A stretch of DNA of 64,000 nt from Aliidongia dinghuensis (lineage in GTDB: Bacteria > Pseudomonadota > Alphaproteobacteria > ATCC43930 > CGMCC-115725): assembly GCF_014643535.1 (NCBI RefSeq), contig NZ_BMJQ01000017.1:62001-126000 (forward strand). Reading direction: 5' to 3'. Shown here one piece after another: positions 44,465 through 64,000 of this stretch. A model generated the notes under the pieces. The model was not told where the DNA came from. It worked only from the letters and a program-made list of their open reading frames with translations, and did not search any database. The position numbers were made by a program, and so were the translations under genes. Each line of letters begins with the position of its first letter. Position 1 is the stretch's first letter.

Positions 44465-44483
44465 CGACACTGGAGTAAAGCAT

Positions 44484-44510: not shown

Positions 44511-44519
44511 CTCTCGAGG

Positions 44520-45909: not shown

Positions 45910-46044
45910 GTAGGATATGGTATCTAGCGGCATGCTTGCCGTCAATCCACGTGCACTCGCCGCTGCCGCACTCGGCATGGTTAGCGCGTCGTTAAGGAGG
46001 CTGGTCCTACCCTCTCGGCTCCTACCGCCGGATCGGACCCTTCC

Positions 46045-46707: not shown

Positions 46708-46720
46708 GCGAGGCGGCGTC

Positions 46721-47161
46721 ATGGCTACTCCGTCGCCGAACCTCCCGCGCCCGGCACCGGCCCGCCTGGTCCCCGAACTGCTGGTGGCCGATGTCAGGAA
46801 AAGTCTCAGCTTCTGGCGCGACCTGTGCGGCTTCCGCGTCGCCTATGACAGATTGGACGAAGGCTTCGCCTATCTCGACCGTGACGGTGCACAGGTGATG
46901 CTGGAAGAGCGTGGGCGCGGCCGAAACTGGGTGACGGGGCCGATGGAACCGCCGCTCGGCCGCGGCGTCAATTTCCAGATTGCCGTGCAATCGCTGAAGC
47001 CGATCCTGGCAGCACTTGAAGGCGCCGGCTGGCCCTTATTCATGGCGCCTGAACGAAAACTGTACCGCACAGGCAGCGTCGAGACCGAGGTCCACCAGTT
47101 CCTGGTGCAAGACCCGGATGGCTATCTGATCCGCTTCTCCGCGTCCATGGGCGAACGCTAG
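46721..47161 (+). CDS. Bleomycin-resistance-type VOC protein
   Basis: The 146-residue protein has the VOC fold of bleomycin-binding and related proteins: LVPELLVADVRKSLSFWRDL, FAYLDRDGAQVMLEERG, and the ending EVHQFLVQDPDGYLIRF. These proteins bind or modify small aromatic or glycopeptide compounds. It follows the oxygenase by 13 bases on the same strand. Resistance function is not shown. Confidence 0.88.
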   Translation: MATPSPNLPRPAPARLVPELLVADVRKSLSFWRDLCGFRVAYDRLDEGFAYLDRDGAQVMLEERGRGRNWVTGPMEPPLGRGVNFQIAVQSLKPILAALEGAGWPLFMAPERKLYRTGSVETEVHQFLVQDPDGYLIRFSASMGER

Positions 47162-47212
47162 CGGGCGAGCTGCGGGCCGGCGACAGCGAGCCGGTGCCGG
47201 AGGAAGCGACGC

Positions 47213-47344
47213 ATCGGCCGTTCGTACCCGCGATGCAACGGCAGGGCGATCGCCAACAAGACCGCGCGCATCGCCTGGAAGCTGATGGCCACCGGGGAAA
47301 GCTACCGACCCGGCGACACCCGAGCGATGCCGGGCGCGGTCTGA
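47213..47344 (+). pseudogene. IS110-family transposase C-terminal remnant
   Basis: In frame with the stop at 47342-47344 the sequence reads AIANKTARIAWKLMATGESY, a close match to the C-terminal end of IS110-type transposases (a run like ALANK-x-AR-x-AW-x2-M-x-RGE-x-Y). The preceding codons do not continue the transposase and no DEDD catalytic domain is present. The 47162-47676 stretch (515 bases) contains no intact gene; the region after the remnant, to about 47640, may be further decayed element sequence. Confidence 0.55.
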
Positions 47345-47676
47345 CCGGACCGACGGAATAGGCGGGCTGCCCACCCGCCCATCCGTCGACAGCCGGCCTT
47401 GCAAGCAGACGAGCAGAGGGTGGGCTCGGGCGAGCCGGGGCGGAAAGGTAAACCGAGGGATCCAGTGGCGTTGGAAGCAGCGTCTCAACCCTGTATGGAC
47501 CTTCCGTCGCGCAAACCCTCTTGGCCAGTGGCAACGCGCCACGGGAAACAGGCCGGACATATGGACGCAAGCGTATCGATCCGAAATCTGCCCGACCAAC
47601 TTGCAAGCAAGGGGCCGTCCACATATGGATCTCCGCCTCTCACGGGCATGACGATAGCGGACGACGGCTCGGTAAA

Positions 47677-49902
47677 TTAGCTCTCGAACCGCGTCGGCCG
47701 CGGGAAGCCGGTCGGCACCATGCGGCCGGACGAGCCGCGGCCGGTCTTCCAGGCGGTCAGGTCTGGCTCGGAACGGACGCGCGAGCCGGCGGGCCAGCTC
47801 AAGCCCTCGGCCAGGACGATGACCTTGGCGTCGGCAAGTCCGCCGTCCTTGTATTTCTGCAGGATGACGCCCCTGCCCTTCGACATCTCCGGGATCTCGG
47901 CCAGCGGCAGGACCAGGAGCTTGCGGTTGTCGCCGACCAGGGCCAGCGCGTCGCCGGTGAACGGCAGGCAGAAGCGCGCGGTCGCCCCCTCGGCCGGGTT
48001 CATGACCTGCTTGCCGGCGCGGGTCTGCGCCTGCGCCTCGTCCTGGTTGACGACGAAGCCGCGGCCGTCGGTCGAGACCAGCATGAGCTTCTCGCCCGGC
48101 CGATAGGGCCTCAGCGCCACGATCTCCGCCTCGTTCGGCAGGTCGATCATCAGCTTCAAGGGCTCGCCATGGCCGCGACCGCCCGGCAGCTTGTCGATGC
48201 CGACCGTGAAGAAGCGGCCGTTGGACGCGAACACCAGCAGACGGTCCGTCGTCTGCGTCTCGACGGCGAAGCGCGGCCCGTCGCCCTCCTTGTAGCGCTG
48301 GTCGGCCAAGGGCACGTTGTGGCCCTTGACCGCGCGGATCCAGCCCTTCTCGGAGCAGAGCACGGTTACCGGCTCGCGCTCGACCAGCGCATGGACCGGG
48401 ACCACGACGGCGGACGGCGCACCGCCAAGCTCGGTCCGGCGCCGGCCGAGCTCGGTGTGCGGGCCGAACTCCTCCTTCATCTCGAGCACTTCCTCGTCGA
48501 TCGCGGCCCAGCGCAGGCTCTCGTCGGCGAGCAGCGCCTCGAGCCCGGTCGCCTCGACGGCGAGATCGTCGATTTCCTTCTGGATCGCCAGCTGCTCGAG
48601 CTTGTGGAGCGCGCGCAAACGCAGGTTCAGGATGGCGTCGGCCTGGAGTTCGGTCAGCTCGAACCGCTCCATCAACGCCGTCTTCGGATGGTCGGCCTCG
48701 CGGATGATGCGGATCACCTCGTCGAGATTGAGATAGACCACCATCTGGCCGCGCAGGATCTCCATGCGGCGGCCGATCGCTTCCAGCCGATTGCGCGAGC
48801 GGCGCTCGAGCACGACCAGGCGATGGTCGAGGAACTCTCTGAGCGCCTCCTTGACGCTCATGACCCGCGGCACGCCCTCAGCGTCGAGGACGTTGAGGTT
48901 CAAGGGAATGCGCACTTCGAGGTCGGTCGAGCGGAAGAGCGACTCCATGAGCACGTCGGGATCGACGTTGCGGGTCTTGGGCTCGAAGACGAGGCGGATC
49001 TGCTCTGCCGATTCCTCCCGGATGTCGGCCAGAAGCGGCAGCTTCTTCTCTTCCAAGAGCTCGGCGATCTTCTCGATCAGCCGGGCCTTCGGCACCATGT
49101 AGGGGATCTCGGTCACGACGATCTGGTAGGCGCCGAGCGGTAGCGGCTCCTTCTCCCAGCGCGCGCGCAGCCGGAAGCTGCCGCGCCCCGTCGCATAGGC
49201 CTGGCGGATATTCTCCTCGGTCTCGACCAGCACGCCACCGGTCGGGAAATCCGGGCCGCGCACGACCTCCGTCAGCGCCTCGAGCGAGCAGTCGGGATGG
49301 GCGATCATCAGGCGCAGGCCGTCGCACAGCTCACCGACATTGTGCGGCGGGATGCTCGTCGCCATGCCGACGGCGATGCCGGTGGCGCCGTTCGCCAGCA
49401 GGTTCGGGAAGCGCGACGGGAGGACGACCGGCTCCTCGCCCTCGCCGTCATAGGTGCTGCGGAAATCGACCGTGTCGTTGTCGATCCCGTCCATGAGCGC
49501 GCGGGCGACGATGGTGAGCCGGCTTTCCGTGTAACGCATGGCCGCAGCGTTATCGCCGTCGACATTGCCGAAATTGCCCTGGCCGTCGACCAGCGGATAG
49601 CGCTGGGCGAAATCCTGCGCGAGCCGCACCAGCGCCTCGTAGATCGAGGCGTCGCCGTGCGGGTGATACTTACCGATGACGTCGCCCACGACGCGGGCGC
49701 ATTTCTTGTAGCCGGCGTCGGGGTCGAGTCTCAGCTGGCGCATCGCCCACAGGATCCGGCGATGCACCGGCTTCAGGCCGTCGCGCACATCCGGCAGCGA
49801 GCGCGCCATGATGGTCGAAAGCGCATAGGACAGGTAGCGCTCCGACAGGGCGTCGTGCAGTTCGGTGTCGCGGATTTCGCCGGCGGCGGAGGTCGAGGCC
49901 AT
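47677..49902 (-). CDS. parC: DNA topoisomerase IV subunit A
   Basis: ParC cuts and rejoins DNA with ParE to decatenate daughter chromosomes. The 741-residue protein has the breakage-reunion domain with catalytic Tyr124 ([11 protein letters not shown]), and the quinolone-resistance region [20 protein letters not shown], where the position equivalent to E. coli Ser80 is Ala85 and Glu89 is kept. The C-terminal beta-pinwheel begins near residue 490 with repeats such as [10 protein letters not shown] and [20 protein letters not shown]. Its partner parE is at 19.7 kb. A dispersed inverted-repeat element is just upstream. Confidence 0.97.
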
Positions 49903-49946
49903 GGATACTCTTCGTGCTCGTCAAATGTCGGACGCCGATCCCTATC

Positions 49947-50057
49947 CGTCATCCGCGCGAAGGCGGGCATCCAGTCCGTTCCGCGCGACCGCGCAGAAAA
50001 GACTCATGTCGCCGCAGACGCGGCTCGCGCTGGATTCCCGCCTCCGCGGGAATGACG
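49947..50057. repeat. Dispersed inverted-repeat element, copy 2
   Basis: This 111-bp copy aligns along its whole length with 28632-28740, including the central ATGTCGCCGCAGACGCGGCT and the right end ATTCCCGCCTCCGCGGGAAT. It lies between recO and parC. The terminal arms CGTCATCC...CATCCAG and CTGGATTCC...GAATGACG are inverted. Confidence 0.9.
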
Positions 50058-50121
50058 AGAGGAAAGGCGCCCCCTAACTCATCCCACGAGATATGGCCAC
50101 GAGCCGGCCGAGTCGGTCAAC

Positions 50122-50931
50122 CTATCGTGTGGGATCAGGCCGACGCTGGGGCACGGGCTCCAGGTCTGGTTCGCTGCCGCCAAGTCTCGCGAGGCGCGCT
50201 TGCGCGGAAAGCCTCCACAATCGATCAACATATCGCGTGCGCGCAGGCGGCAGGCCGCGGCCGTACGGCGCCAGGGCCTGGCGTTCGAGGAAGCTTGCGG
50301 TGAGCGCCAGCCCGTCCAGCAGGTCCTCGGCATCGGAGCCGCCGCTGCCGAGGCCGCCGAGCAGGCGCGGCAGGACCAGGAGCCTGTCCTTGTAGGCAAC
50401 ACCGGCGTCCTGGCTGACCGCCCGGCCGGTGCGCGGCGACACCCAGGCGAGATCGTCGCGCGAGCCGGTGACGGCGCAGGCCGTGAGATCGAGCCCATAT
50501 CCCAGCTCGCGCAACAGATCGACCTCCCAGGCGAGATGGGCGGCGGCATAGCCCTCGTCGCGGTCGAGCGCGCCCAGGAGCCGTATGAGCCCGTCGAACG
50601 CCGCCGGGTGTGCTTCCCGTTCGGGCAAAGCCACCTCGGTCAGCGCCACCGCCGCCTCGAGGCAGCCGAGCCTGAGCGGATCATCGAGCAGGCCCGCGAC
50701 ATAGCTGGTGCCGGGCTCGATCTGCAGATGGCCGAGATGCTCCTCGAGCCGGGCGCGCCAGGTCGCGGTCACGTGCGTGCCGGGTTCGTAGGCGCCGCGC
50801 TGCCGGCTCTTGGCGCCGCCACGGACGAGACCGCGCTGCCGGCCGTGCGCGCGGGTCAAGAGCGAGACGATCAGGCTCCCCTCGCCTTGCCGGCGAGCAC
50901 CAAGCACGATCGCCTCGTCGGTCCAGTCCAC
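50122..50931 (-). CDS. recO: DNA repair protein RecO
   Basis: RecO binds single-stranded DNA and SSB and helps load RecA with RecR and RecF. The 269-residue protein has the N-terminal OB-fold (DEAIVLGARRQGEGSLIVSL, LTRAHGRQRGLVRGGAKSR) and a helical C-terminal half. The start is a GTG at 50931, seven bases after the era stop. The Cys residues of the zinc ribbon found in some RecO proteins are only partly visible. It is the last gene of the rpoZ-to-recO block. Confidence 0.93.
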   Translation of the reverse strand: MDWTDEAIVLGARRQGEGSLIVSLLTRAHGRQRGLVRGGAKSRQRGAYEPGTHVTATWRARLEEHLGHLQIEPGTSYVAGLLDDPLRLGCLEAAVALTEVALPEREAHPAAFDGLIRLLGALDRDEGYAAAHLAWEVDLLRELGYGLDLTACAVTGSRDDLAWVSPRTGRAVSQDAGVAYKDRLLVLPRLLGGLGSGGSDAEDLLDGLALTASFLERQALAPYGRGLPPARTRYVDRLWRLSAQARLARLGGSEPDLEPVPQRRPDPTR

Positions 50932-50938
50932 CGGCGGC

Positions 50939-51841
50939 TCAGGGGTCGTATTCGAGCCCGATCGCGGCGTAGCGCTCGCGGTCCTCGGCCCAGTCCTCGC
51001 GCACCTTGACGAACAGGAACAGGTGGACCCGGCGCTCCAGCATCTTCTCGAATTCGGCGCGCGCACGCTCGCCCAGGCGCTTGATCTGCCGGCCGCCCTT
51101 GCCCAGCACGATCGCCTTCTGGCTCGCGCGCTGGACATAGATCACCTGGGAGATCTTGACGCTGCCGTCCTTGAGATCCTCCCAGGCTTCGGTCTCGACC
51201 GTTGTCTCGTACGGCAGCTCATCATGGAGCTGCAGGAACAGCTGCTCGCGCGTCACCTCGGCCGCGAGCAGGCGCTGCGGCACGTCCGACAGCTGGTCCT
51301 CCGGATAAAGCCAGGGGCCCTCCGGCAGGCGCTCGAGCAGGTATTTCTCGATGTCGGCGACGCCGTCGCCGCTCAGGCCCGAGATCATGAAGACCCGGTC
51401 GAAGACGCCTTCGAGATCGAGCGCGCCTGCGAGCTGCAGCAGCTTCTCATGGCGCGCCGCATCGGTCTTGTTGAGCGCGAGTACGGCGCGCCGCCCCGCC
51501 TCCTTCAGGCTCGCGACGATCGCTTTCACCTCGTCGGTCAAGCCGTCGGCCGCATCGACCAGCAGCAGGATCACGTCCGCATCGGCCGCCCCGCTCCAAG
51601 CGGCCGCAACCATGGCACGGTCGAGCCGGCGCTTCGGCCGGAAGATGCCCGGCGTATCGATATAGATCACCTGGGCCGCATCCAACACCTGGATGCCCAG
51701 CACGCGCGTTCGCGTCGTCTGGACCTTGGGCGAGACGATCGACAGCTTGGCGCCGACCAGCCGGTTCAACAACGTCGACTTGCCGGCATTCGGCGCGCCC
51801 AGGATCGCGACATAGCCGCATTTGGTGGCGTTCGCGGTCAT
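50939..51841 (-). CDS. era: GTPase Era
   Basis: Era is an essential GTPase that binds 16S rRNA and helps mature the 30S subunit. The 300-residue protein has G1 GAPNAGKST, G2/G3 DTPG (IDTPGIFRP), G4 NKTD (ALNKTDAARH) and a C-terminal KH domain with VLGKGGRQIKRLGERARAEF. AAAGGAGG, located inside the end of rnc, is the ribosome site, and its ATG overlaps the rnc stop (ATGA). This is the widely conserved rnc-era-recO order. Confidence 0.97.
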   Translation of the reverse strand: MTANATKCGYVAILGAPNAGKSTLLNRLVGAKLSIVSPKVQTTRTRVLGIQVLDAAQVIYIDTPGIFRPKRRLDRAMVAAAWSGAADADVILLLVDAADGLTDEVKAIVASLKEAGRRAVLALNKTDAARHEKLLQLAGALDLEGVFDRVFMISGLSGDGVADIEKYLLERLPEGPWLYPEDQLSDVPQRLLAAEVTREQLFLQLHDELPYETTVETEAWEDLKDGSVKISQVIYVQRASQKAIVLGKGGRQIKRLGERARAEFEKMLERRVHLFLFVKVREDWAEDRERYAAIGLEYDP

Positions 51842-52581
51842 GGGGTTCCTCCTTTGGCGCTGCCGCTGATGCGGGCCAGCAAGATGGCGGCCGCGGCCGC
51901 TTCGGCCAGGCGCTTCGAGGCGCCGCTCGCCACCTCCTCGGCCTCGCCCTCGACTGATGCTGACACGGTGAACACGGGCTGATGCGGCGGCCCGTCGGTC
52001 TTGACGAGACGGTAGACCGGCAACGGCCGCCCCCGCCCCTGCGCCCATTCCTGAAGCGCCGTTTTCGGATCCTTGGGCGGCGTCAGCGACGCGTTCATGC
52101 GCGGGGTCCAGCGCTCGACAACGAAGCGGCGGGCGGCCTCCAGCCCGCCATCGACATAGAGTGCGGCAATGACCGCCTCGCACACGTCGGCGAGCAGGCT
52201 CGGATTGTGCCGGGCGGCGCCATCGTCGAGCGCCGGCAGGCGGACATGATCGGCGAGATCGATGTCGGTCGCGACGGCGGCGAGCGTCTCCTTCCGCACG
52301 AGGTCGGCATGGCGGCGAGCGAGCGCTCCTTCCGCTTCGCGCGGGAACGCCGCCATCAGCATCTCGGCCACCAGCAGGCCCAGCACCCGGTCGCCGAGGA
52401 ACTCGAGCCGCTCGTATCCCAGCGAGCGGCGCGCGCCGCGGCGGTCGCGCCGGCCGGCGGCGACATAGGCGGCGCTGCGATGGGTCAAGGCCTCCTCGAG
52501 CAGCCCGGCATCGACGAAGCGGTGACCGAGCTCGCCTTCGAGCGCGCTGCGCTGCCCCGGAGCCGTGACCGCATCGCTCAT
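51838..52581 (-). CDS. rnc: Ribonuclease III
   Basis: RNase III cleaves double-stranded RNA in rRNA and mRNA processing. The 247-residue protein has the catalytic signature YERLEFLGDRVLGLLVAEML (the common GDSVL reads GDRVL) and the second acidic site LLADVCEAVIAALY, then a dsRNA-binding domain at the C-terminus (PKTALQEWAQGRGRPLPVY, then FTVSASVEG). Its ATG overlaps the stop of the upstream lepB gene (ATGA), so the frame open to 52644 is not used. It overlaps era by four bases. Confidence 0.95.
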   Translation of the reverse strand: MSDAVTAPGQRSALEGELGHRFVDAGLLEEALTHRSAAYVAAGRRDRRGARRSLGYERLEFLGDRVLGLLVAEMLMAAFPREAEGALARRHADLVRKETLAAVATDIDLADHVRLPALDDGAARHNPSLLADVCEAVIAALYVDGGLEAARRFVVERWTPRMNASLTPPKDPKTALQEWAQGRGRPLPVYRLVKTDGPPHQPVFTVSASVEGEAEEVASGASKRLAEAAAAAILLARISGSAKGGTP

Positions 52582-53321
52582 TGCACCACCCGCATCAGTC
52601 GATCCCAGCGGATCCGACCCGGCCATTCCCAAATCCTCCACCACGCCTCGTGCGGGACGATCGAAAAGAAGCGCAGATCGGCGCGCCCGACCAGGTTCTC
52701 GAGCGGGATATAGCCTACCTTGGTCAACATGCGGCTGTCCTGGGAATGCTCGCGATTGTCGCCCATGACGAAGAGATGGCCGTCCGGCACGACATAGATG
52801 CTGGTGTCGTCGAGCGGCCCGTCATCCTTCTCCTGCATGATCTCGTGCGCGACGCCGTTCGGCAGCGTCTCGATGAAACGGGGGAACGAGAGCTTCGTCG
52901 CCCCGTCGTCAACCACCAGCGGCGCCGTCGGCTCGCGCCGGACCGGCTCATCATTGATGGTGAGCACGCCATGGATCATCTGGATCCGGTCGCCCGGCAG
53001 CCCTACGACGCGCTTGATATAATCCTGGTCCGGATCGGCCGGTAGCCGGAAGACGACAACGTCGCCCCGCGCCGGCAGCCGGCCGAACAGCCGTCCCGCG
53101 ACCGGCGGATACCAGAGCGGCAGCGAATAGCGGCTGAAGCCGTAGGCGAACTTGGAGACGAACACATAGTCGCCGACGAGCAGCGTCGGCACCATTGACC
53201 CGGACGGGATCGAAAACGGCTCATAGACGAAGCTGCGCACGGCGAGCGCCAGCAGGACGGCCCAAAGGAGCGTGCGAACGATCTCCACCGGCCCGTCCCG
53301 TTCTTTTCTGCGTCTTCTCAT
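52578..53321 (-). CDS. Signal peptidase I, second copy
   Basis: The 247-residue protein is a type I signal peptidase, a membrane serine protease that removes Sec and Tat signal peptides. The catalytic Ser42 is in IPSGSMVPTLL and the base Lys103 is in DYIKRVVGLPGD; MGDNREHSQDSRM is the family C-terminal motif. It has one N-terminal membrane helix. It is adjacent to a second lepB gene (53361-54134), from which it differs in the C-terminal half. It overlaps rnc by four bases. Confidence 0.94.
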   Translation of the reverse strand: MRRRRKERDGPVEIVRTLLWAVLLALAVRSFVYEPFSIPSGSMVPTLLVGDYVFVSKFAYGFSRYSLPLWYPPVAGRLFGRLPARGDVVVFRLPADPDQDYIKRVVGLPGDRIQMIHGVLTINDEPVRREPTAPLVVDDGATKLSFPRFIETLPNGVAHEIMQEKDDGPLDDTSIYVVPDGHLFVMGDNREHSQDSRMLTKVGYIPLENLVGRADLRFFSIVPHEAWWRIWEWPGRIRWDRLMRVVQ

Positions 53322-53360
53322 GGGCGTCGCGTGCGGCGCTTCAAGGCCGCGGCATTCGGA

Positions 53361-54134
53361 TCAGTGCACGCCGGTGAACATGCGCGAAAAGCGGATCGCC
53401 CACGGCCATTCCCAGACCTGCCACCAGGGGGCGACATTGTCGTCGTAGGAAAAGAAGCGGAACTCGGCCCGGCCGACCAGGTTCTCGAGCGGCACGAAGC
53501 CCACGCCGTTGTTGCGCGGCGGCACGCGGCTGTCGAGCGAGTTGTCCCGGTTGTCGCCCATGGCGAAGATGCTGTCGGCCGGCACTTCAAAGACCGGCGT
53601 GTTGTCATAGGTGCCGGTGCCCGGCTTCTGCAGCTTCAGGATCGGATGCTGGCGCCCCTCGGGCAGCGTCTCGATGAACTGCGGCGTCTCGATGTTGCGC
53701 TGATATTCCGTGTCGTAGAAATCCTCGGTCCGCGACAGCTCGACCGGCTTGCCGTTCACGTTCAGCACGCCGTCGACCATCTGGATCTTGTCGCCGGGCA
53801 GCCCGATCACCCGCTTGATGTAGTCGACCGACGGATCGCGCGGCAGCTTGAACACGACGACGTCACCGCGCGCCGGCAGGCGGCCGAAGATCCGGCCGGA
53901 GAACGGCGGATGGATCAGCGGAAACGAATAGCGGCTGAAGCCGTAGGAATATTTCGAGACGAAGACGTAGTCGCCGATCAGCAGCGTCGGGATCATCGAG
54001 CCCGAGGGGATGTTGAACGGCTCGAACGCGAAAGTCCTGAGGATCAGGACGACGAGCCCCACGGTCACGACAGTTTTGACGATCTCGAAGAAGCTGTCGC
54101 CGCTCTTCGTCTTGCTCTTGGTCACAGCGGCCAT
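53361..54134 (-). CDS. lepB: Signal peptidase I
   Basis: The 257-residue signal peptidase has one membrane helix near residue 20-38, catalytic Ser46 (NIPSGSMIPTLLIGDYVFVS), Lys107 (DYIKRVIGLPGDKIQMVDG) and the MGDNRDNSLDSRV motif. It lies in the usual place between acpS and rnc. The next gene downstream is a related copy, 39 bases away. The insertion between the Lys and the final motif is longer here (EDFYDTEYQRNIETPQF). Confidence 0.95.
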   Translation of the reverse strand: MAAVTKSKTKSGDSFFEIVKTVVTVGLVVLILRTFAFEPFNIPSGSMIPTLLIGDYVFVSKYSYGFSRYSFPLIHPPFSGRIFGRLPARGDVVVFKLPRDPSVDYIKRVIGLPGDKIQMVDGVLNVNGKPVELSRTEDFYDTEYQRNIETPQFIETLPEGRQHPILKLQKPGTGTYDNTPVFEVPADSIFAMGDNRDNSLDSRVPPRNNGVGFVPLENLVGRAEFRFFSYDDNVAPWWQVWEWPWAIRFSRMFTGVH

Positions 54135-54215
54135 CGGGGCTCACGGGTTGGGGTTATCGGTTTCGGGCGATAGGCGGGACGCTGGCCGCCATGAAGCGCG
54201 GCGCGCGAGCCGGCG

Positions 54216-54623
54216 TCAAGCATTCGCGGGCACCGCGACAATCATGACCATCGCTTCGGCGAGCGGCGGCTCGTCGGTGAGCGTCAGATGGATCTGCGCC
54301 ACCATGCCGGGCGGGGTCATCGCGTCGAGGCGCGCCCGGGCGCCGCCGGTCAGCTGCAGCGTCGGCTGCCCGCTGGCCAAGTTGACGACGCCGATGTCGC
54401 GCCAGAACACGCCGGCGCGGAAGCCGGTGCCGAGCGCCTTGGAGCAGGCTTCCTTGGCCGCATAGCGCTTGGCGTAGGTCGCCGCCCGCTGCGCCCGCCG
54501 GTCGGCCTTGGCCCGCTCGACCGGCGTGAAGCAGCGCTCGGTGAACTTGTCGCCGTAGCGCTCCAGCGTCTTCTCGATGCGGCGGATGTCGATGAGATCG
54601 GTGCCGAGGCCCAGGATCATCAT
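54216..54623 (-). CDS. acpS: Holo-[acyl-carrier-protein] synthase
   Basis: AcpS transfers 4'-phosphopantetheine from CoA to apo-ACP for fatty acid synthesis. The 135-residue protein shows [20 protein letters not shown] with the metal-binding Asp and [15 protein letters not shown] with the second metal ligand Glu. Its ATG overlaps the pdxJ stop (ATGA). Length is normal for the trimeric AcpS family. Confidence 0.96.
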
Positions 54624-55375
54624 GCTTCCGCCCCGGCGCGCGCCGCGTCCATGGCCTGCCGCATTCCGTGGATCGACGCTTCCAGCCCGACGAAGATCGC
54701 CTCGCCGATCAGGAAATGGCCGATGTTGAGCTCCGCGATCTCAGGCAGCGCCGCGACGTCGCGGACCGTATCGTAATCGAGCCCGTGCCCGGCATGGACC
54801 TCGAGCCCCAGCGCATGACCGTGGGCCGCGGCCTCGGCCAGGCGCTCAAGCTCGCGCTGCCGCTCCGGGCCCGGGGCGGCGTGGCAATAGGGCCCAGTGT
54901 GGAGCTCGACGACCGGCGCGCCCAGGCGCCGCGCCATGTCGAGCTGCGCCTTGTCGGGTGCGATGAACAGCGAAACGCGGATGCCCGCGTCCCGGAGCTG
55001 CGCGATCTTGGGCGCCAGCTCGTTATGGCCGGCGACCGCATCGAGCCCGCCCTCGGTCGTGCGCTCCTCGCGCCGCTCCGGCACGAGGCAGGCGGCGTGC
55101 GGCCGGTGCCGGAGCGCGATCGCGACCATCTCGTCGGTCGCCGCCATCTCGAGATTGAGCGGCAGGTTGATCGTCGTCATCAGGCGGTCGATGTCCTCGT
55201 CGCTGATGTGGCGCCGATCCTCGCGCAGATGTGCCGTGATGCCGTCGGCGCCGGCCTGGGCCGCGAGCAGGGCCGCGCGCAGGGGCTCGGGGTGGCTGCC
55301 GCCGCGGGCGTTCCGCACAGTTGCGACATGGTCGATGTTGACGCCGAGCCGAAGATGCTGATGGACGTACGCCAT
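54620..55375 (-). CDS. pdxJ: Pyridoxine 5'-phosphate synthase
   Basis: PdxJ condenses 1-deoxyxylulose 5-phosphate with 3-amino-2-oxopropyl phosphate in the DXP-dependent vitamin B6 pathway. The 251-residue TIM-barrel protein starts [19 protein letters not shown], with [48 protein letters not shown] and [16 protein letters not shown] following. The two His residues and the Glu of catalysis lie in these segments. It is coupled to acpS. Confidence 0.97.
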
Positions 55376-55415
55376 GGGTTCTCGCTCGTTTCTGAGGATC
55401 AGGTGGGCAACGGCG

Positions 55416-57551
55416 TCAGCTGCGCGCGCGTTCCACCGAATTGATCGACGGCATCGCTCTCAGGGCCGCGATCAGGTTGGTCAGATGCTTGACGTCCTTG
55501 ACCTCGATGTCCACCAGGATCTCGAAGAAGTCGTTCGCCCGGTTGGTGATCTTGAGGTTGGTGATGTTGCCGGCATTCTTGCCGATCACCGTCGTCAAGT
55601 TGCCGAGCGCGCCCGGCTCGTTGCCGATCATGACCGAGATGCGGCCGATATGGCTGTGCCCCTCGTCGGTCTGGTCCCAGGCCACGTCGAGCCAGCGCTC
55701 CGGCGTATCGGCGAAGCTCTCGAGCGTCTCGCAGTCGATCGTGTGGATCGTGACCCCTTTGCCGGTGGTCACGATGCCGACGATGCGGTCGCCCGGCAAC
55801 GGATGGCAGCAGCCGGCGTAGTGCAGCGCCATGCCCGGGATGAGCCCGCGGATCGGCACCGCATTGTCGGAGCTTTTCGAGCGAGCACGCGGCAGCGGCA
55901 CGACCTTGGCCGTCTTGGTCTCGACCCGGTTCGGGAAGACGGCGTTCAGCACCTCGCCCTTGGTGACGAGCCCCTCGCCGACTGCGGCATAAAGGTCTTC
56001 CACGGTCGTGACCGCGAAATTCTTCGTGACCGCTTCGAGCGCCTTTTCCGACAGTTCCTGATGCTCGTGCCGGAACGCCTTGGTCAGGATCTCCTTGCCG
56101 AGGTTCAGGTACTGCGCGCGCTGCTGGGCGCGGATGAAGCGGCGGATGCGCGCCCGCGCCTTGCCGGTGACGACGAAGCGTTCCCAGGTCGGCGACGGCG
56201 TCTGCGCCTTGGACGTGATGATGTCGACCTGGTCGCCATTCGCGAGCTGCGAGCGCAGCGGCACGATCCGTCCGTTGATCTTGGCGCCGACGCAGGTATC
56301 GCCGACCTGGCTGTGGACGGCATAGGCGAAGTCGACCGGCGTCGCCCCGCGCGGCAGCGCGATCAGGTCGCCCTTGGGCGTGAAGCAGAACACCTGGTCC
56401 TGGAACATCTCGAGCTTGGTGTTCTCGAGGAATTCCTCCGGCCCCGACGCGTGCTCCAGAATGTCGAGCAGCTCGCGCAGCCAGCGGTACTGCTTGCCCT
56501 CGGTCCGGCCGGCGTTCTGCTTGTAGCTCCAGTGCGCTGCGACACCGAGTTCCGCCACCTCGTGCATCTCACGCGTGCGGATCTGCACCTCGATACGCTG
56601 GCGCTCGGGCCCGAAGATGCCGGTATGGAGCGAGCGGTAGCCGTTCGGCTTCGGTGTCGAGATATAGTCCTTGAAGCGCCCATGCACGACCGGGTAATGG
56701 CTGTGGATGACGCCCAGCGCCTGGTAGCATTCGCCCACGGTCTCGACCGTGACGCGGAAGGCCATGATGTCGGACAGCTGCTCGAAGCCCACGTTCTTGC
56801 GCTGCATCTTGCGCCAGATCGAATAGGGCGTCTTCTCGCGGCCGGTCACGGTCGCCTCGTCGAGGCCGCCTTCCTTGAGCGTCTCCGTCAGCTGATTGAT
56901 GACCTTCTCGACGAGACTGCCGCCTTGCTCCTTCAGGAACGCGAAGCGCGTCTTGATCGATTCGCGCCCCTCGGGATGCAGCTCGGCGAACGCCAGATCC
57001 TCGAGCTTGTCCTTCATCTGGTGCATGCCGATACGCTCGGCGAGCGGCGCGTAGATCTCCATGGTCTCGCGCGCAATCCGGCGGCGTTTCTCGTCGCTCT
57101 TGATGTAGTGCAGCGTCTCCATGTTGTGCAGGCGATCGGCGAGCTTCACCAGCAGCACCCGGATGTCCTCGGACATCGCGAGCACGAGCTTGCGGAAATT
57201 CTCGGCCTGCTTCGTCTGGTCTGACTGCAGCTCGAGGCGCGACAGCTTGGTGACGCCGTCGACGAGCCGGGCGATGTCCCGGCCGAACAGCCGCTCGATA
57301 TCGTCGAGCGTCGCGACCGTGTCCTCGACCGTGTCGTGGAGCAGGCCGGTGACGATCGACGCGGAGTCGAGCTTCATCTGGGCCAGGATGCCCGCGACCT
57401 CGACCGGATGGGAGAAATAGGGGTCGCCCGATGCTCGCTTCTGCGAGCCGTGAGCTTGCATGGAGAAGACGTAGGCGCGATTGAGCGCATCTTCGTCGGC
57501 GTTCGGGTCGTAGGCCTTGACGCGCTCGACCAGGTCGTACTGGCGGATCAC
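55416..57551 (-). CDS. Bifunctional (p)ppGpp synthase/hydrolase
   Basis: This Rsh protein makes and degrades the stringent-response alarmone (p)ppGpp. The 711-residue chain has the HD hydrolase domain (LLHDTVEDT, His72-Asp73), the synthetase domain with [20 protein letters not shown] (the RXKD form of bifunctional enzymes rather than EXDD), the TGS domain near residue 400, and a C-terminal ACT domain ([19 protein letters not shown]). Alphaproteobacteria usually have one such enzyme. The start is a GTG at 57551, with a weak ribosome site. It follows rpoZ and precedes pdxJ. Confidence 0.96.
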
Positions 57552-57564
57552 GGTTGTCGCGCCC

Positions 57565-57609
57565 CAAGAAACGAACGGCCAAGAAACGAATGGCCAAGGG
57601 ACGAACGGC
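57565..57609. repeat. Three-copy 15-bp tandem repeat upstream of rsh
   Basis: CAAG[AG][AG]ACGAA[CT]GGC is repeated at 57565-57579, 57580-57594 and 57595-57609, ending 13 bases before the rsh start. It lies in the leader; there is an adjacent hairpin. No gene reads through it with a good start. Confidence 0.9.
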
Positions 57610-57630
57610 CCGACGCATCACGTCGGGCCG
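57606..57630 (-). terminator. Hairpin between rpoZ and rsh
   Basis: CGGCCCGACG (57606-57615) is perfectly complementary to CGTCGGGCCG (57621-57630) with loop CATCA. It lies 84 bases after the rpoZ stop and 55 bases before the rsh start. There is no U-run, so it may attenuate rather than end transcription into rsh. Confidence 0.55.
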
Positions 57631-57714
57631 TCATCACAAACATGCTGCGAGTGCGGCGACTCATCGGGGAAGTTGGCTGTTGTGCCACGCGACCAGACGC
57701 TCGCCCACGCGGGG

Positions 57715-58134
57715 TCAGATCTCGTCGGAGAAGTCGGCGTCGCCGAGTTTCTCTTCCACCTCGGACTCGAGGTCGACCTCGCCTTCCTCGACATCGACGA
57801 ACTGCATGTCGTCCTTGAGCTCCTCGTCGATCGCCTGCGCACCGGCACCATCGGGCCAGGTCTGCTCGTCGATCGACAGCTCGGTATCTTCCTCCGGCTC
57901 GTCGATCTCCGGCTGCTTCTGCAGGCCGGTCACGAGGGCGTTCTGCAGCGCATCGACCTCGATCGTGTATTCCGCGATCTCGCGCAGCGCCACGACCGGA
58001 TTCTTGTCATTGTCGCGGTCGACCGTGATCAATGCGCCAGATGCGATATCCCGCGCCCGCTGTGCCGCCACGAGAACCAGCTCGAAGCGGTTCGGCACTC
58101 TCGTCACGCAATCTTCAACCGTTACACGCGCCAT
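57715..58134 (-). CDS. rpoZ: RNA polymerase omega subunit
   Basis: Omega helps assemble RNA polymerase and carries one ppGpp site. The 139-residue protein has the conserved core [32 protein letters not shown] and [14 protein letters not shown]. The C-terminal 70 residues are acidic and disordered-looking, as in other alphaproteobacterial forms that are longer than the E. coli protein. It precedes rsh, whose product ppGpp it helps sense. The ATG at 58134 is chosen; the open frame reaches 58188. Confidence 0.95.
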
Positions 58135-58170
58135 TCTGGTCAAGCCCGCCGAATTAATGGGTAGCAACGA

Positions 58171-58199
58171 GATATACGACGCGGGCAATCATGGTGCAA
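58171..58199 (-). promoter_or_regulatory. Sigma-70-type promoter of rpoZ
   Basis: On the minus strand TTGCAC (58199-58194) is followed after exactly 17 bases by TATATC (58176-58171). This places the start of transcription about 30 bases upstream of the rpoZ ATG. Good spacing and location support it; each box differs from the consensus at one or two positions. Confidence 0.6.
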
Positions 58200-58296
58200 T
58201 GCCGAGATCTTCATAACGGCCCCGCTTCTCTTGCCGCGCAGCCTTGCCGCAGCCTCATGAATGGCGCGCCCGCACCCCGGCGCGCGAGTCACGGGT

Positions 58297-58800
58297 TCAC
58301 GGCAGGCGCCGCGTCGTCTGCTCCGGGCCGATGCCTGCGAGCATTTCTCGGATATCACGGCCGTCGACCGGATGGCGCCACTCCGGCGCCACGTCGGCGA
58401 GCGGCTGCAGCACGAAGGCCCGCTCGTGCAGCCGCGGGTGCGGCAGCACCGGCCAATCGCCCGAGGGCCAGCCGTCCGAAACGATATCGCCGTGGGCCAA
58501 GAGATCGAGATCTAGCACGCGCGGCCCGTTGACGATGTCGCGCACCCGTCCGAACGCCTCTTCGATGCGATGCAGCCTCTCGAGCACCGGCGCCGGGCCA
58601 AGCGCCGTCTCGACCGCCACCACGCCGTTCACAAACCAGGGCTGGTCCGAGATCGGCACCGGTGCCGTCTCGTACCAGGCCGAGCGCGCAACGACCTTGA
58701 GGCCGGACCGGTTGAGCGCCTTCAGGGCCGCCTCCAGCGTCGCCCGCGGGCTGCCATGGACCGGGCTCGGCATGTTGGCCCCCAGCGCCACCAGAATCAT
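58297..58800 (-). CDS. folK: 7,8-dihydro-6-hydroxymethylpterin pyrophosphokinase
   Basis: FolK transfers pyrophosphate from ATP to hydroxymethyl-dihydropterin in folate synthesis. The 167-residue protein has the substrate segments MILVALGANMPSPVHGSPRA, SAWYETAPVPISDQPWFVNG, GPRVLDLDLLAHGDIV (the metal-binding D-x-D) and LPHPRLHERAFVLQPLADVA. An open frame extends to 58914, but the ATG at 58800 has GGAGGG upstream. The 200-base gap to the divergent NYN gene is AT-rich and gene-free. Confidence 0.95.
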   Translation of the reverse strand: MILVALGANMPSPVHGSPRATLEAALKALNRSGLKVVARSAWYETAPVPISDQPWFVNGVVAVETALGPAPVLERLHRIEEAFGRVRDIVNGPRVLDLDLLAHGDIVSDGWPSGDWPVLPHPRLHERAFVLQPLADVAPEWRHPVDGRDIREMLAGIGPEQTTRRLP

Positions 58801-58999
58801 GAGCCCAGCCCTCCCTTGCTCGTCCTCGGCGCCCTGGCGCCCGACGCGCGCTCGAGACGCAAGCTTATTGATCATACAAATTGCCCCAAAAAACCGGACT
58901 TGCCACCCCTCCATCTCCTATTCCATAATTCCGTCACTATTTAATGCTTAGCCCCACATGCATTAATCCGGCAAATTCGCCCAAAAGGATTTTAATAAG

Positions 59000-59587
59000 A
59001 TGGTATTCTACCCACAGGAGCGGCTAGGGCTTTTCATCGACGGCGCAAATCTCTACGCCGCTGCCCGCGCGCTCGGCTTCGATATTGATTACAAAAAGCT
59101 GCTAGACGTATTTCGCAAGAATGGCCAATTGATTCGCGCCTTCTATTACACAGCCTTGATTGAAGATCAGGAATATTCGCCGATCCGGCCGCTGGTCGAC
59201 TGGCTCGATTACAACGGCTATACCATGGTCACGAAGCCGACCAAGGAATTCACCGATGCGACGGGCCGGCGCAAGCTCAAAGGCAATATGGATATTGAGC
59301 TCGCGATCGACGTGATGGAGATGGCCGAGCATCTCGACCACGTCGTGCTGTTCTCGGGCGACGGCGATTTCCGGCGGCTGGTGGAGGCCGTCCAGCGCAG
59401 GGGCGTGCGCGTCACCGTCGTCTCCACGGTGCGCTCCAACCCGCCGATGGTGGCCGACGAGCTTCGACGCCAGGCCGACACCTTCATGGAGCTGCAGGAT
59501 CTGGCGCCCAGCATCATGCGCGCCCATGTGCATCGCGAGGCGCTGCCGCCCGATGAAGACGACGAGGACGAGGACGACGAGGCATAG
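59000..59587 (+). CDS. NYN-domain (LabA/DUF88-like) nuclease
   Basis: The 195-residue protein has the PIN-like NYN fold: LGLFIDGANLYAAARALGFD with the first acidic residue, GNMDIELAIDVMEMAEHLD, and VVLFSGDGDFRRLVEAVQRRG with the second acidic pair. These residues bind a metal in RNA-cleaving relatives. The C-terminus is an acidic tail (DEDDEDEDDEA-like). AAAGGA is ten bases upstream of the ATG. The RNA target is unknown; such proteins are common in alphaproteobacteria. Confidence 0.92.
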   Translation: MVFYPQERLGLFIDGANLYAAARALGFDIDYKKLLDVFRKNGQLIRAFYYTALIEDQEYSPIRPLVDWLDYNGYTMVTKPTKEFTDATGRRKLKGNMDIELAIDVMEMAEHLDHVVLFSGDGDFRRLVEAVQRRGVRVTVVSTVRSNPPMVADELRRQADTFMELQDLAPSIMRAHVHREALPPDEDDEDEDDEA

Positions 59588-59614
59588 TCGCGCCCGCCTC
59601 TGCTGCATCTGCTC

Positions 59615-60259
59615 ATGTTGAACTCCGATTCTTGCGGACCGGCGCCGGACTGCCGGCTGTGCCCTCGCCTCGCCGCGTTCCGCGACGACCACCGCGCGCG
59701 ATATCCGGACTGGCACAATGCGCCGGTCCCGTCGTTCGGCGGCGCCGATGCGCGCCTGCTGATCGTGGGATTGGCGCCGGGCCTCAGGGGAGCCAATCGC
59801 ACGGGTCGCCCCTTCACCGGTGATTATGCCGGCGACCTGCTCTACGCGACGCTCGTCAAGTTCGGCCTCGCAGAGGGGCAATACGGGCAGGCGCGCGACG
59901 ATGGCCTTGAGCTCAAGGGCGCGCGCATCACCAACGCGGTGCGCTGCGTGCCGCCGGAGAACAAGCCGGACCCGTCGGAGATCAAGAACTGCCGGCCGTT
60001 CCTCGTCGCGGAGCTGGCCGCCCTCGGCCGGCTCAAGGCGATCCTGGCGCTGGGCCAGCTGGCCCATACCCAGGTGCTGGCGACGCTCGGGCTCCGGCAA
60101 GCCGCCTACAAGTTCGCCCACGGCGCGCAGCATCAGCTGCCGAACGGCCTGATGCTGGCCGACAGCTATCATTGCTCGCGCTACAACACGAACACCGGCA
60201 GACTCACGACCGAGATGTTCGAGGCGGTCTTCGCCGGGCTGATGCCAACGCTCGGCTGA
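59615..60259 (+). CDS. Type 5 (UdgB-like) uracil-DNA glycosylase
   Basis: The 214-residue enzyme removes uracil and other deaminated bases from DNA. The UDG motif A is GLAPGLRGANRTGRPFTGD (GLAPG at 52-56), which lacks the polar Asp/Asn of families 1 and 4, as expected for type 5. Cys residues of the iron-sulfur cluster are seen as CRLCPRL near the N-terminus, NAVRCVPPENKP and NCRPFL. The motif with catalytic His is ADSYHCSRYNTNTGRL. The ATG is 28 bases after the NYN gene stop, so they are likely co-transcribed. Confidence 0.93.
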   Translation: MLNSDSCGPAPDCRLCPRLAAFRDDHRARYPDWHNAPVPSFGGADARLLIVGLAPGLRGANRTGRPFTGDYAGDLLYATLVKFGLAEGQYGQARDDGLELKGARITNAVRCVPPENKPDPSEIKNCRPFLVAELAALGRLKAILALGQLAHTQVLATLGLRQAAYKFAHGAQHQLPNGLMLADSYHCSRYNTNTGRLTTEMFEAVFAGLMPTLG

Positions 60260-60345
60260 TCTTTTTTAGCGCGCCCGTCAAATCATGACATTCGATGTCG
60301 TGTTTAGGGCGGTATAGCGGTCTCGCACGTTCGAGCGAGGCCCCC

Positions 60346-60840
60346 ATGACCACAGAAGCCCCGGCCCATGACGGGCTGCATGATTTCGATTTCCTCATCG
60401 GCCGCTGGCAGGCTCATCTGAAGAAGCTGCTCAATCCGCTGACCGGCTCGACCGAATGGATCGAATACGAAGGCACGTCCGTCACGCGGAAGCTCTGGGG
60501 TGACCGCGCCAATACCGAGGAATTCGCGGTCTCCGGCATCGGGCACGACCGACGCATCGAGGCGCAGACCCTGCGGCTTTATAATCCTGAGGCGCGCCAG
60601 TGGAGCATCTACCTGGTCGACGCCGCCAAGGGCAATCTGGCGCTGCCACCGGTCATCGGCCAATTCACCGACGGGCGCGGCGAATTCTACGACCACGAGA
60701 TCTTCGACGGCCGGGCAATCTTCGTCCGCTACGTCTGGTTCGATGTCTCGCCGCAGGCGGCGCGCATGGAGCAGTCCTTCTCGGCGGACGGCGGCCGGAC
60801 GTGGGAGGTGAACTGGATCTGCTCGCTGACGCGCGACTAG
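60346..60840 (+). CDS. DUF1579-like lipocalin-fold hypothetical protein
   Basis: The 164-residue protein begins HDGLHDFDFLIGRWQAHLKK, the pattern of DUF1579-type proteins (a beta-barrel with a conserved GxW). Later strands include GEFYDHEIFDGRAIFVRYVW and the ending ARMEQSFSADGGRTWEVNW. Function is unknown; members may bind small hydrophobic ligands. The ATG at 60346 has GCGAGG five bases upstream; an earlier frame start at 60295 is weaker. Confidence 0.75.
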   Translation: MTTEAPAHDGLHDFDFLIGRWQAHLKKLLNPLTGSTEWIEYEGTSVTRKLWGDRANTEEFAVSGIGHDRRIEAQTLRLYNPEARQWSIYLVDAAKGNLALPPVIGQFTDGRGEFYDHEIFDGRAIFVRYVWFDVSPQAARMEQSFSADGGRTWEVNWICSLTRD

Positions 60841-60898
60841 CGCTCGTCGTGGATTCTTCCCTCGCGGTTCCAGCCAGGCCGCTCCGATAAAGCGAGCC

Positions 60899-61540
60899 CT
60901 ACAATCCCGGTGATCTCGCCGCCCAAGCCTTGGTGGCCTGGCAGCTTTCCATCGCTCGGGCGTAGGCAGGGCGTGCCGTCGTGCGGGCGAGATAGTCCCG
61001 CTCGGTAGAACCGGGGACGTAGTTGCCAGTTCGCAGGCCGAGCAGGAGGGCGTAGCTCACCGAGATATCGGCAGCAGTGAATCGGTCGCCGGCGAGATAG
61101 GGGCAATCCCCGAGGCGGCGGATAACCAACCCCAGCCGGCTCTCGAAGGTCTCGCGTGCCCAGCAGGTAACCCGGGCATCTCGCTCGGCTTCGGGCGCCA
61201 GTTCGCGACCGACAAAGACGGCGTTCATCGGCCCGGCGAGCCCGGCCTCGCCTAAGTGGAGAAACTGCAGATAGGAAGCGAAGGCGGGATCGTCCGGAGC
61301 GACGGCAAGCGAACCTGAGCCGTGGCGGGCGAGCAGGTACTCAAGAATCGCGATCGATTCGACCATGATCGTCTCGCCGTCCTGCAGTGCGGGAATGAAG
61401 CCGGCGGGGTTGATCGCGAGGAAATCGCGATCATTCTCGACAGCCAGCAGATCGACCGGGCGCAGCCGATAAGCCAATCCTAATTCCTCAAGCAGCCAGA
61501 CAACACGGAAGCCACGACCTTCGCCATAGACGGTGAGCAT
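60899..61540 (-). CDS. Glutathione S-transferase family protein
   Basis: The 213-residue protein has the thioredoxin-like GST N-terminal domain (MLTVYGEGRGFRVVWLLEEL, INPAGFIPALQDGETIMVES with the gamma-glutamyl site ES) and the helical C-terminal domain with LAGDRFTAADISVSYALLL (the N-capping Asp). It conjugates glutathione to an electrophile or acts as a related isomerase. The start ATG is 61540. The frame is open to 61588 in a different start context. Substrate is unknown. Confidence 0.9.
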   Translation of the reverse strand: MLTVYGEGRGFRVVWLLEELGLAYRLRPVDLLAVENDRDFLAINPAGFIPALQDGETIMVESIAILEYLLARHGSGSLAVAPDDPAFASYLQFLHLGEAGLAGPMNAVFVGRELAPEAERDARVTCWARETFESRLGLVIRRLGDCPYLAGDRFTAADISVSYALLLGLRTGNYVPGSTERDYLARTTARPAYARAMESCQATKAWAARSPGL

Positions 61541-61715
61541 GGTTAAGCGTTCCTGGATTGGGCTAGATATACTAACTCGCAGAGGCAAGCCGGTCGCGCA
61601 ATGGACTATCGATGGCGCATAACGCGCTCAAGGCTTGGCGCATGTTCGTCACCCTACAGCGCGGGCCCTGCCCACTTTATGGGTTCACGACCTAGCCAAA
61701 GAATAGCCGAAACCG

Positions 61716-61744
61716 TTGACAATCAAAGGTTGTATTGGTAAAAT
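61716..61744 (+). promoter_or_regulatory. Near-consensus sigma-70 promoter of the orphan gene
   Basis: TTGACA (61716-61721), a 17-base AT-rich spacer and TAAAAT (61739-61744) match the consensus TTGACA-N17-TATAAT with one difference. It lies 45 bases upstream of the AT-rich orphan gene. The quality of this promoter is unusual in this GC-rich window, where most genes have poor -10 boxes. Confidence 0.8.
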
Positions 61745-61789
61745 ATATCTGCCGCTCAAATCCTGTTAGGCCAACACTGGGGGACGGTG

Positions 61790-62071
61790 ATGGGAAAACT
61801 GGCCACGCAGTCATTTGAAAGAGATCATGCACAGTCCGCCACCCAAAAGGCGTTGAATTTTTACAACGCCAACATCGATGATTTCCACCGAGCAATACAA
61901 GCGGTAACAAAAATTGAATTAAATAAAAATATCGGCGCTGTATCTGTGAGGTTTTTGCCTGGAGATGAAAACAAGTTCTGCAGGGTGATCATAAATACAA
62001 GCACAAAGACCGTCGATATCACCTACGATGGCAGCGATATTTATATATCGGAACCAGCCCACACTCAGTAA
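61790..62071 (+). CDS. AT-rich orphan hypothetical protein (93 aa)
   Basis: The 93-residue protein is encoded by DNA of about 43% G+C, far below the neighbours. It runs MGKLATQSFERDHAQSATQK, KALNFYNANIDDFHRAIQ, SVRFLPGDENKFCRVIIN and TSTKTVDITYDGSDIYISEP. The second half looks like beta strands, the first half like helices. There is no signal peptide or membrane segment. GGGGGAC precedes the ATG; a GTG three bases earlier is possible. I do not recognise a family. Low G+C, a good promoter and a position beside the unrelated urt genes suggest recent acquisition. It is convergent with urtE. Confidence 0.7.
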   Translation: MGKLATQSFERDHAQSATQKALNFYNANIDDFHRAIQAVTKIELNKNIGAVSVRFLPGDENKFCRVIINTSTKTVDITYDGSDIYISEPAHTQ

Positions 62072-62102
62072 ATTTGCGCTGTAGACTCATTATGGGAATG
62101 CC

Positions 62103-62795
62103 CTAGACCGCCAGGTAGCGCTGCACCGCTTCGTCGTCGAGTTCGCCGCGATTGCCCGAGACGACGATCTCGCCGCGCTCCATGACGGCAAAGCGGTCGG
62201 CGAGTTCGCGGGCGAAGTCGAGATATTGCTCGACCAGCAGGATCGCCATGTCGCCGCGCTCGGCCAGCAGCCGGATCACCCGGCCGATGTCCTTGATGAT
62301 CGAGGGCTGGATGCCCTCGGTCGGCTCGTCCAGCACCAGGCACTTCGGCCGGGTGACGAGCGCGCGTGCGATCGCCAGCTGCTGCTGCTGGCCGCCCGAG
62401 AGATCACCGCCGCGCCGGTGCAGCATCTTGTCCAGCACCGGGAACAGCTCGAAGATCTCGTCCGGGATGGTCGTCTCGCCCTTGGCCGCGGCGAGGCCGG
62501 TCTTCAGGTTCTCCAGTACCGTCAGGCGCGGGAAGATCTCGCGGCCCTGGGGCACCAGCGCCAGGCCGGCGGCGGCGCGCTTGTGCGGCGGCAGCTTGTC
62601 GATCGGCTGGTCGTTCCACAGGATGCGGCCGGCCGCGATCGGCTGCAGCCCGAAGATGCCGCGCAGCAGGCTGGTCTTGCCGACACCGTTGCGGCCCAAG
62701 ACGCAGGTCACTTCGCCGAGGCGCGCGGTCAGGCTGACCCGGCGCAGGATCCGGCTCGCCCCATAGGAAAGATCGATCGCGTCGACGGTCAGCAT
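62103..62795 (-). CDS. urtE: Urea ABC transporter ATPase (UrtE-like)
   Basis: The 230-residue ATPase has Walker A GRNGVGKTS, the signature LSGGQQQQLAIARAL, Walker B CLVLDEPTEGIQPS and the H-loop. Together with urtD and urtC upstream it matches the urea-type high-affinity importer (UrtABCDE); the short LivF-like ATPase is usually the last gene. A glutamine-rich GGQQQQLAIARAL signature is typical of UrtE. It starts four bases after urtD. Confidence 0.85.
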   Translation of the reverse strand: MLTVDAIDLSYGASRILRRVSLTARLGEVTCVLGRNGVGKTSLLRGIFGLQPIAAGRILWNDQPIDKLPPHKRAAAGLALVPQGREIFPRLTVLENLKTGLAAAKGETTIPDEIFELFPVLDKMLHRRGGDLSGGQQQQLAIARALVTRPKCLVLDEPTEGIQPSIIKDIGRVIRLLAERGDMAILLVEQYLDFARELADRFAVMERGEIVVSGNRGELDDEAVQRYLAV

Positions 62796-62799
62796 CGGC

Positions 62800-63552
62800 T
62801 CAACGTCCCAAATAGACTTCGATCACGCGCGGATGGTTCTGCACGGCGTCGATCGATCCCTCGGCCAGCACCGAGCCTTCGTGCAGCACCGTGACCTTGG
62901 CGCCCAGGCTGCGCACGAACGCCATGTCGTGCTCGACGACGACGATGGTGTGATATTGGGCGAGCCGGGTGATGAGGTCGGCGGTCGCCGCCGTCTCGGC
63001 GTCGGTCATGCCGGCGACCGGCTCGTCGAGCAGGATGAGCCGCGGGTCGTGCACCAGCAGCATGCCGATCTCGAGCCACTGCTTCTGGCCGTGGCTCAGA
63101 AGTCCGGCCAGATCGTGGCGCCGATGCATGAGGCCGATCTCACCCAGCACGCGCTCGAGCCGCCCGGCCTGCTCGTCGTCGAGCCGGCGGAACAACGTGT
63201 GGCGGATGCGCCGGTCGTCCTTGAGCGCCAGCTCGAGGTTCTCCTCGACCGTCAGGTTCTCGAACACGGTCGGCTTCTGGAACTTGCGGCCGATCCCGAG
63301 GTTGGCGATGGCCGGCTCGTCGAGCCGCGTCAGGTCATGCCGCCCTTCGAAGAGCGCGGTGCCGCTGTCGGGTCGCGTCTTGCCGGTAATCACGTCCATC
63401 ATGGTGGTCTTGCCGGCGCCGTTCGGGCCGATGATGGTCCTGAGCTCGCCCGGCTCGATGACGAGCGACAGCGCGTTCAACGCCTTGAACCCGTCGAAGC
63501 TGACGGTAATGCCGTCGAGATAGAGCTGGGCGGTCGAAAGCGCCTCAGTCAT
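62800..63552 (-). CDS. urtD: Urea ABC transporter ATPase (UrtD-like)
   Basis: The 250-residue LivG-type ATPase has Walker A GPNGAGKTT, the LIVG-type GRKFQKPTVFENLTVEENLE loop, signature SHGQKQWLEIGMLL, Walker B LILLDEPVAGMTDAE and the His of VVVEHDMAFVR. The Q-W-L-E form of the signature and the FQKPTVFE motif are typical of UrtD. Its ATG overlaps the urtC stop by eight bases. It is followed by urtE. Confidence 0.87.
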   Translation of the reverse strand: MTEALSTAQLYLDGITVSFDGFKALNALSLVIEPGELRTIIGPNGAGKTTMMDVITGKTRPDSGTALFEGRHDLTRLDEPAIANLGIGRKFQKPTVFENLTVEENLELALKDDRRIRHTLFRRLDDEQAGRLERVLGEIGLMHRRHDLAGLLSHGQKQWLEIGMLLVHDPRLILLDEPVAGMTDAETAATADLITRLAQYHTIVVVEHDMAFVRSLGAKVTVLHEGSVLAEGSIDAVQNHPRVIEVYLGR

Positions 63553-64000
63553 GGGCCGTCTCCCCCACGGCAGCGGCGGGCGTGGCACCACGCCAGCGCC
63601 GCAGCTGGGTGGCCAGCCCCAGGATGCCGTGCGGCATGGCGAGCGTGACGGCGATGAAGAGCGCGCCCAGCGCGAACAGCCACAGCTCCGGCGCCGCCCC
63701 GGTGAGCCAGGTCTTGATGAAATTGACGACCAGCGCGCCAAGGATCGCGCCGACGAGCGTGCCGCGCCCGCCGACCGCGACCCAGATCGCGACCTCGATC
63801 GAGTTGCCCGGCGAGAATTCGCTGGGATTGATGATGCCGATCTGCGGCACGTAGAGCGCGCCCGCAAGGCCGCACAGCAGTGCCGAGAGCGTGAAGACGA
63901 AGAGCTTCGCTCCCGTCGTGGAATATCCCAGGAACCGGACGCGGCTCTCCGCGTCGCGCAGCGCCAGCAGCACCCGGCCGAACCGGCTCGTCACGACGAA
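63545..64000 (-). CDS. urtC: Urea ABC transporter permease (UrtC-like), C-terminal part
   Basis: This is the last 151 residues of a LivM-type membrane permease; the start lies outside the window. It shows the EAA-type loop FGRVLLALRDAESRVRFLGY, several hydrophobic helices, and the IWVAVGGRGTLVGAILGALV segment characteristic of UrtC/LivM. It overlaps urtD by eight bases. The order C-D-E supports the urea transporter assignment. Confidence 0.85.
   Translation of the reverse strand, partial: FVVTSRFGRVLLALRDAESRVRFLGYSTTGAKLFVFTLSALLCGLAGALYVPQIGIINPSEFSPGNSIEVAIWVAVGGRGTLVGAILGALVVNFIKTWLTGAAPELWLFALGALFIAVTLAMPHGILGLATQLRRWRGATPAAAVGETAHD

Follow-up and report, generated by a model that had tools for sequence, protein, structure and literature searches.

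Horizontally acquired ORFans of bacteria, as PMC2275313 describes them for Escherichia coli, are short, A+T-rich for their host, confined to one lineage and without a family match. Elements of the IS427 group of the IS5 family, in the outline given by PMC3281130, mostly measure 832-865 bp, make a 2-bp target duplication and have short terminal repeats, often with two overlapping ORFs. In mobile insertion cassettes and in insertion sequences (IS) with passenger genes, both named in PMC3129680, a gene other than the transposase adjoins the IS ends.

The gene examined here lies in a 64,000-nt stretch of the Aliidongia dinghuensis genome (the window). It is short, A+T-rich, lineage-restricted and unmatched like the E. 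coli ORFans but differs from them, as portrayed in that source, in that two long-diverged members within one genome keep their promoter and leader. It is not itself part of an IS, and the window keeps terminal-like sequences of IS427-type elements only. As in a mobile insertion cassette, a non-transposase gene stands next to IS-end-like sequences; unlike in such cassettes, the gene is not framed by an inward-facing pair of terminal repeats, both ends having the same orientation.

An A+T-rich gene of narrow distribution

The gene (61790-62071, forward strand, TAA stop included) encodes 93 aa from an ATG start; a GTG three bases upstream would give 94. Its G+C content of 42.6%, against 66.5% for the window, makes it the lowest-G+C stretch of the 64 kb. 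When the window was cut into 6372 segments of 282 bp in 10-bp steps, only four had a G+C as low as the gene itself, and every segment at or below 45% starts within 61671-61861. The initial annotation had described an ORF of 93 residues with about 43% G+C and had called it the most foreign-looking gene of the window, and both descriptions agree with these values. The foreign origin that it proposed is likewise favored by the low G+C, by a congener that lacks the gene (below) and by the lack of a relative in the other genomes searched.

Scans of the protein against Pfam, NCBIfam and PADLOC assigned it no family, PADLOC returned no match for its paralogue (below) either, and a PDB sequence search gave nothing under E 0.5. 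A PHROG match of 28 residues (E 0.0089, function unknown), a Pfam match to SspH (0.14) and weak PHROG matches of the paralogue were all rejected as chance. The earlier impression that the protein belongs to no recognized family was thus upheld in Pfam, NCBIfam, PHROGs and PADLOC. Among 61 related genomes, own genome included, a credible relative was found in the own genome only, and none was found outside it among 43 genomes of the order, 385 sampled genomes of the class and 398 sampled genomes of the phylum (the own genome is counted in each, and the four sets overlap). Weak matches beyond the own genome (E 0.006-0.8) occur in the relatives, order and class sets, in open frames of 85-1741 codons. 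The best of these (E 0.0084 in the relatives set, E 0.0275 in genome G028 and E 0.0059 in G411) were rejected as chance; rejection of the weak matches was based on score and length, with the DNA read for two of them. When both family members were run by tblastn on 72,556 plasmids and 50,697 phages, no match reached E <= 1, and scans of GTDB and IMG/VR contigs seeded by a short exact peptide also gave nothing, though such seeding could miss distant relatives. The protein probably belongs to an undescribed family, judging from these searches.

AlphaFold2 models built from a two-row alignment were poor (mean pLDDT 56.4 and 62.3). They suggest three helices followed by a four-stranded meander, and we claim no fold. 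Foldseek retrieved nothing with E <= 0.001, and the structure-prediction search that had been proposed at the outset therefore yields, from poor models, no usable fold match. The protein is small and presumably soluble. Our best guess at its role, offered with low confidence, is a stand-alone accessory protein (moron-like) of phage or mobile-element origin that would act by binding a host protein.

A second copy and a shared promoter

The one credible relative is a paralogue in the same 7.37-Mb genome (G000; 91 contigs), located at C8:211045-211344 with the stop codon (L002:1501-1800) or 211045-211341 without it. It encodes 99 aa and is 40% identical to the window protein in amino acids over 87 columns (E 6e-19). 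A two-row profile search of the genome found no credible third member. The description of the gene as an orphan is thus accurate in the taxonomic sense, with no relative beyond the own genome in the sets searched, but the gene is not a singleton. The paralogue is A+T-rich as well (46.1% G+C), and the genes flanking the two copies differ. At the nucleotide level the copies share 146 of 264 positions (55%), with identities of 56.8, 59.1 and 50.0% at codon positions 1, 2 and 3, and neither ORF is interrupted over the roughly 88 aligned codons, where all gaps keep the frame. Three methods gave a dN of 0.53-0.59 (about 0.56) and a dS of 1.0-1.7 (about 1.4), suggesting a protein that is likely under constraint, although dS is near saturation and dN/dS is therefore a rough measure.

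Upstream of the window gene is a sigma-70-type promoter, TTGACA-N17-TAAAAT (61716-61744, forward strand), which matches 11 of 12 consensus bases and has a TG before the second hexamer (an extended -10); the near-perfect promoter reported in the initial annotation is thus present. It ranks first among five promoter-like sites in 44001-64000; shuffles of that stretch contain 2.5 such sites on average. It is followed by a 5' leader (61745-61789, forward strand), which we compared with the leader of the paralogue. The two copies have an identical TTGACA box, the spacer motif GGTnGTATTGnTA in common and the same 74-nt distance from TTGACA to the start codon. Over this stretch 42 of 74 positions are identical without an indel, an agreement equalled by none of 20000 shuffles with the -35 box left out. 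In contrast, the 60 nt upstream of the -35 box agree at 18 positions, which is chance level (5988 of 20000 shuffles). Since identity drops to chance beyond the -35 box, the conserved unit is, by this comparison, promoter plus leader plus ORF. The same comparison excludes chance as the source of the ORF and promoter, because both are retained in a copy at another locus of the genome.

Across the 7.37-Mb genome the combined promoter motif is matched perfectly at two places, one at each family gene; four further matches carry three mismatches, and a reversed control gives two. RNA folding of the leader and the 3' ends was no better than that of shuffles, an Rfam search gave no match, and a tRNA search of three stretches of DNA found none. 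That the promoter was kept in both copies speaks for its use, and the gene may be actively expressed, as the initial annotation suggested. Still, MucR-type proteins can silence A+T-rich foreign DNA in alphaproteobacteria, and even a good promoter is therefore no proof of expression.

The junction and nearby IS5-like sequences

In the one congener compared, G001, a uracil-DNA-glycosylase-like gene and urtE are transcribed toward each other, 39 bp apart, with no orphan-family gene between them. The window has at this place an extra segment of 1857 bp (60247-62103) that has no counterpart in G001, and the flanking DNA of the two species is 81-86% identical. Besides the orphan-family gene, the segment contains a GST-like gene and an unnamed ORF. 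The latter encodes about 164 aa (60346-60840, forward strand; 181 aa are listed from an ATG at 60295) and has no Pfam or NCBIfam family. The GST-like gene (60899-61540, reverse strand; Pfam GST_N, 6.7e-14) is divergent from the orphan-family gene; two of 39 family genomes (own included) contain a match to it at E <= 1e-40. We note that it is possibly foreign too, despite a G+C near 64%. A urtE match at E <= 1e-70 is present in 23 of the 39 family genomes, and the glycosylase gene stands beside urtE in 1 of the 22 non-own loci (that of G001) within the DNA examined around each. The comparison of this junction in relatives, suggested earlier, thus yields one congener without the gene, and a choice between gain here and deletion in G001 would rest on that one genome.

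At the paralogue, a 112-bp remnant of an IS5-family (IS427-like) element starts at the stop codon. It is 79% identical to one end of a related full element in the same genome (L061:1496-2340, on contig C37), and a profile of ten IS ends matches it at E 5.6e-20. The full element is like those of the IS427 group in its length of 845 bp, its 19-bp terminal repeats (at 89%) and its two overlapping transposase ORFs, and it shows about 72-75% identity to elements on plasmids that carry an IS5-family annotation. No IS end is seen upstream of the paralogue (277 of 1000 shuffles). Another IS-like match, L062, was set aside, having no terminal repeats of the IS5/L061 kind.

Around the window gene, a sequence resembling an IS5 terminal repeat, CTAGG-N7-CCCATAA (61677-61695, reverse strand), ends 20 nt before the -35 box with its interior side to the left, away from the gene. 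A second IS5-end-like sequence, CTAGGG-N4-CCCATAA (62090-62106, reverse strand), has the same orientation and sits where the extra segment ends on the right, overlapping the stop codon of urtE. The pattern of the IS terminus, CTAGG-N{4,8}-CCCATAA, occurs in the 64-kb window at just these two sites, one on either side of the gene, where shuffles predict 0.00, and is absent from 415,236 strand-bases of other loci; it was, however, written post hoc, after both sites had been seen. In the profile search the left site reached only E 2.7, its alignment score being matched by 8 of 1000 shuffles, and the score of the right site was matched by 269 of 1000, so that by alignment score alone this site is not significant. 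For these reasons we give the IS-end evidence in the window limited weight.

The two sites form direct, not inverted, repeats, so they are not inverted ends enclosing the gene, and no inward-facing left IS end was found at it. The left edge of the extra segment has no IS end (905 of 1000 shuffles), and a profile search found no IS body in the window. As to a target-site duplication, CTAG occurs at 61692-61695 and 62103-62106, but the same four bases form the outer end of the IS repeats as aligned, and in G001 the empty site does not align cleanly base by base. With up to three mismatches allowed, no further copy of the 20-base IS-end-like sequence turned up in G001 or elsewhere in G000, and it is therefore not the end of a recent multicopy IS. 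Mobile DNA is nevertheless probably present near the window gene, and the initial statement that the gene lacks flanking mobile sequence is probably wrong, given IS5-like ends on both sides, for which the evidence is weak to moderate, and the clear IS5-family remnant that abuts the paralogue.

Origin of the gene

We consider it somewhat probable that the gene is a self-contained unit of foreign cargo near IS5-family insertions, with a second, diverged member of its family beside the same kind of IS. Such a unit would combine a sigma-70 promoter of its own with a short leader and an ORF whose product is small, soluble and of an undescribed family. It would have arrived in a part of the genome that IS5-family (IS427-like) insertions had shaped, and the second, long-diverged member would have come in at a different locus, next to an IS of that type. 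As a near-consensus promoter would travel with the unit, the gene could be expressed wherever it lands. The IS ends may have been the agents of movement. The earlier reading changes in three respects: the gene belongs to a two-member family, the promoter falls inside the conserved unit, and mobile DNA probably lies nearby. A more specific version, which we regard as doubtful, is a mobile single-gene unit (near-consensus promoter, fixed 74-nt lead and small new-family protein) spreading from an unsampled gene pool, inserting at CTAG sites beside IS427-type ends and arriving at least twice independently.

The divergence of the two copies bears on their age. Because the paralogues are 55% identical and the flanking DNA of the two species 81-86%, a duplication after the species split, and so a recent one within this genome, is unlikely unless the paralogues evolve very fast; if rates are equal, the paralogue split predates the species split. 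This excess of divergence over that of the species would also suit an old native pair that arose by duplication before the genus split, was retained in this species and disappeared from its congener and all others in the family; local conditions rather than transfer would then account for the low G+C. We find that history quite unlikely: it requires that G001 and all the other family genomes searched have each lost both copies, and both copies are A+T-rich (42.6% and 46.1%). Since neither copy was found in any other family genome, two separate acquisitions from an unsampled family appear more likely than an older pair lost twice in G001.

The gene could instead be a decayed fragment of a mobile element or phage, its ORF a functionless passenger remnant adrift. 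The lack of a recognizable fold or family, the IS remnants close by and third codon positions barely more diverged than the others are consistent with this, but both ORFs have remained open with in-frame gaps only, promoter and leader spacing are kept in both copies, and dN is below dS, so we judge decay unlikely. Very unlikely, in our view, is that the gene is half of a two-gene system (toxin-antitoxin or defense pair) with its partner nearby. Small size and an own promoter suit such genes in general, but the conserved unit is a single ORF with no adjacent co-conserved partner, the neighbors differ between the copies, and neither protein has a PADLOC match.

To return to the self-contained foreign unit, the gene is probably ordinary foreign cargo and, on present evidence, no new kind of system. 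It offers a clean small example of the way a foreign A+T-rich gene may arrive with its own promoter, and the paralogue pair, through its conserved residues and promoter, gives a handle on where orphan families originate.

The surroundings of the paralogue were also inspected. With its AAA neighbor as a probe, 8 of 8 genomes gave only general Clp-like matches, and no empty site was shown. Beside the paralogue (C8; L048:4719-15534) are genes for a MoxR-type AAA protein, a SWIM zinc-finger protein, a DUF4132 protein and a 1139-aa Clp-like double-AAA protein, the last scoring far under the Clp equivalog cut-offs. This run of genes looks like an accessory AAA cluster.
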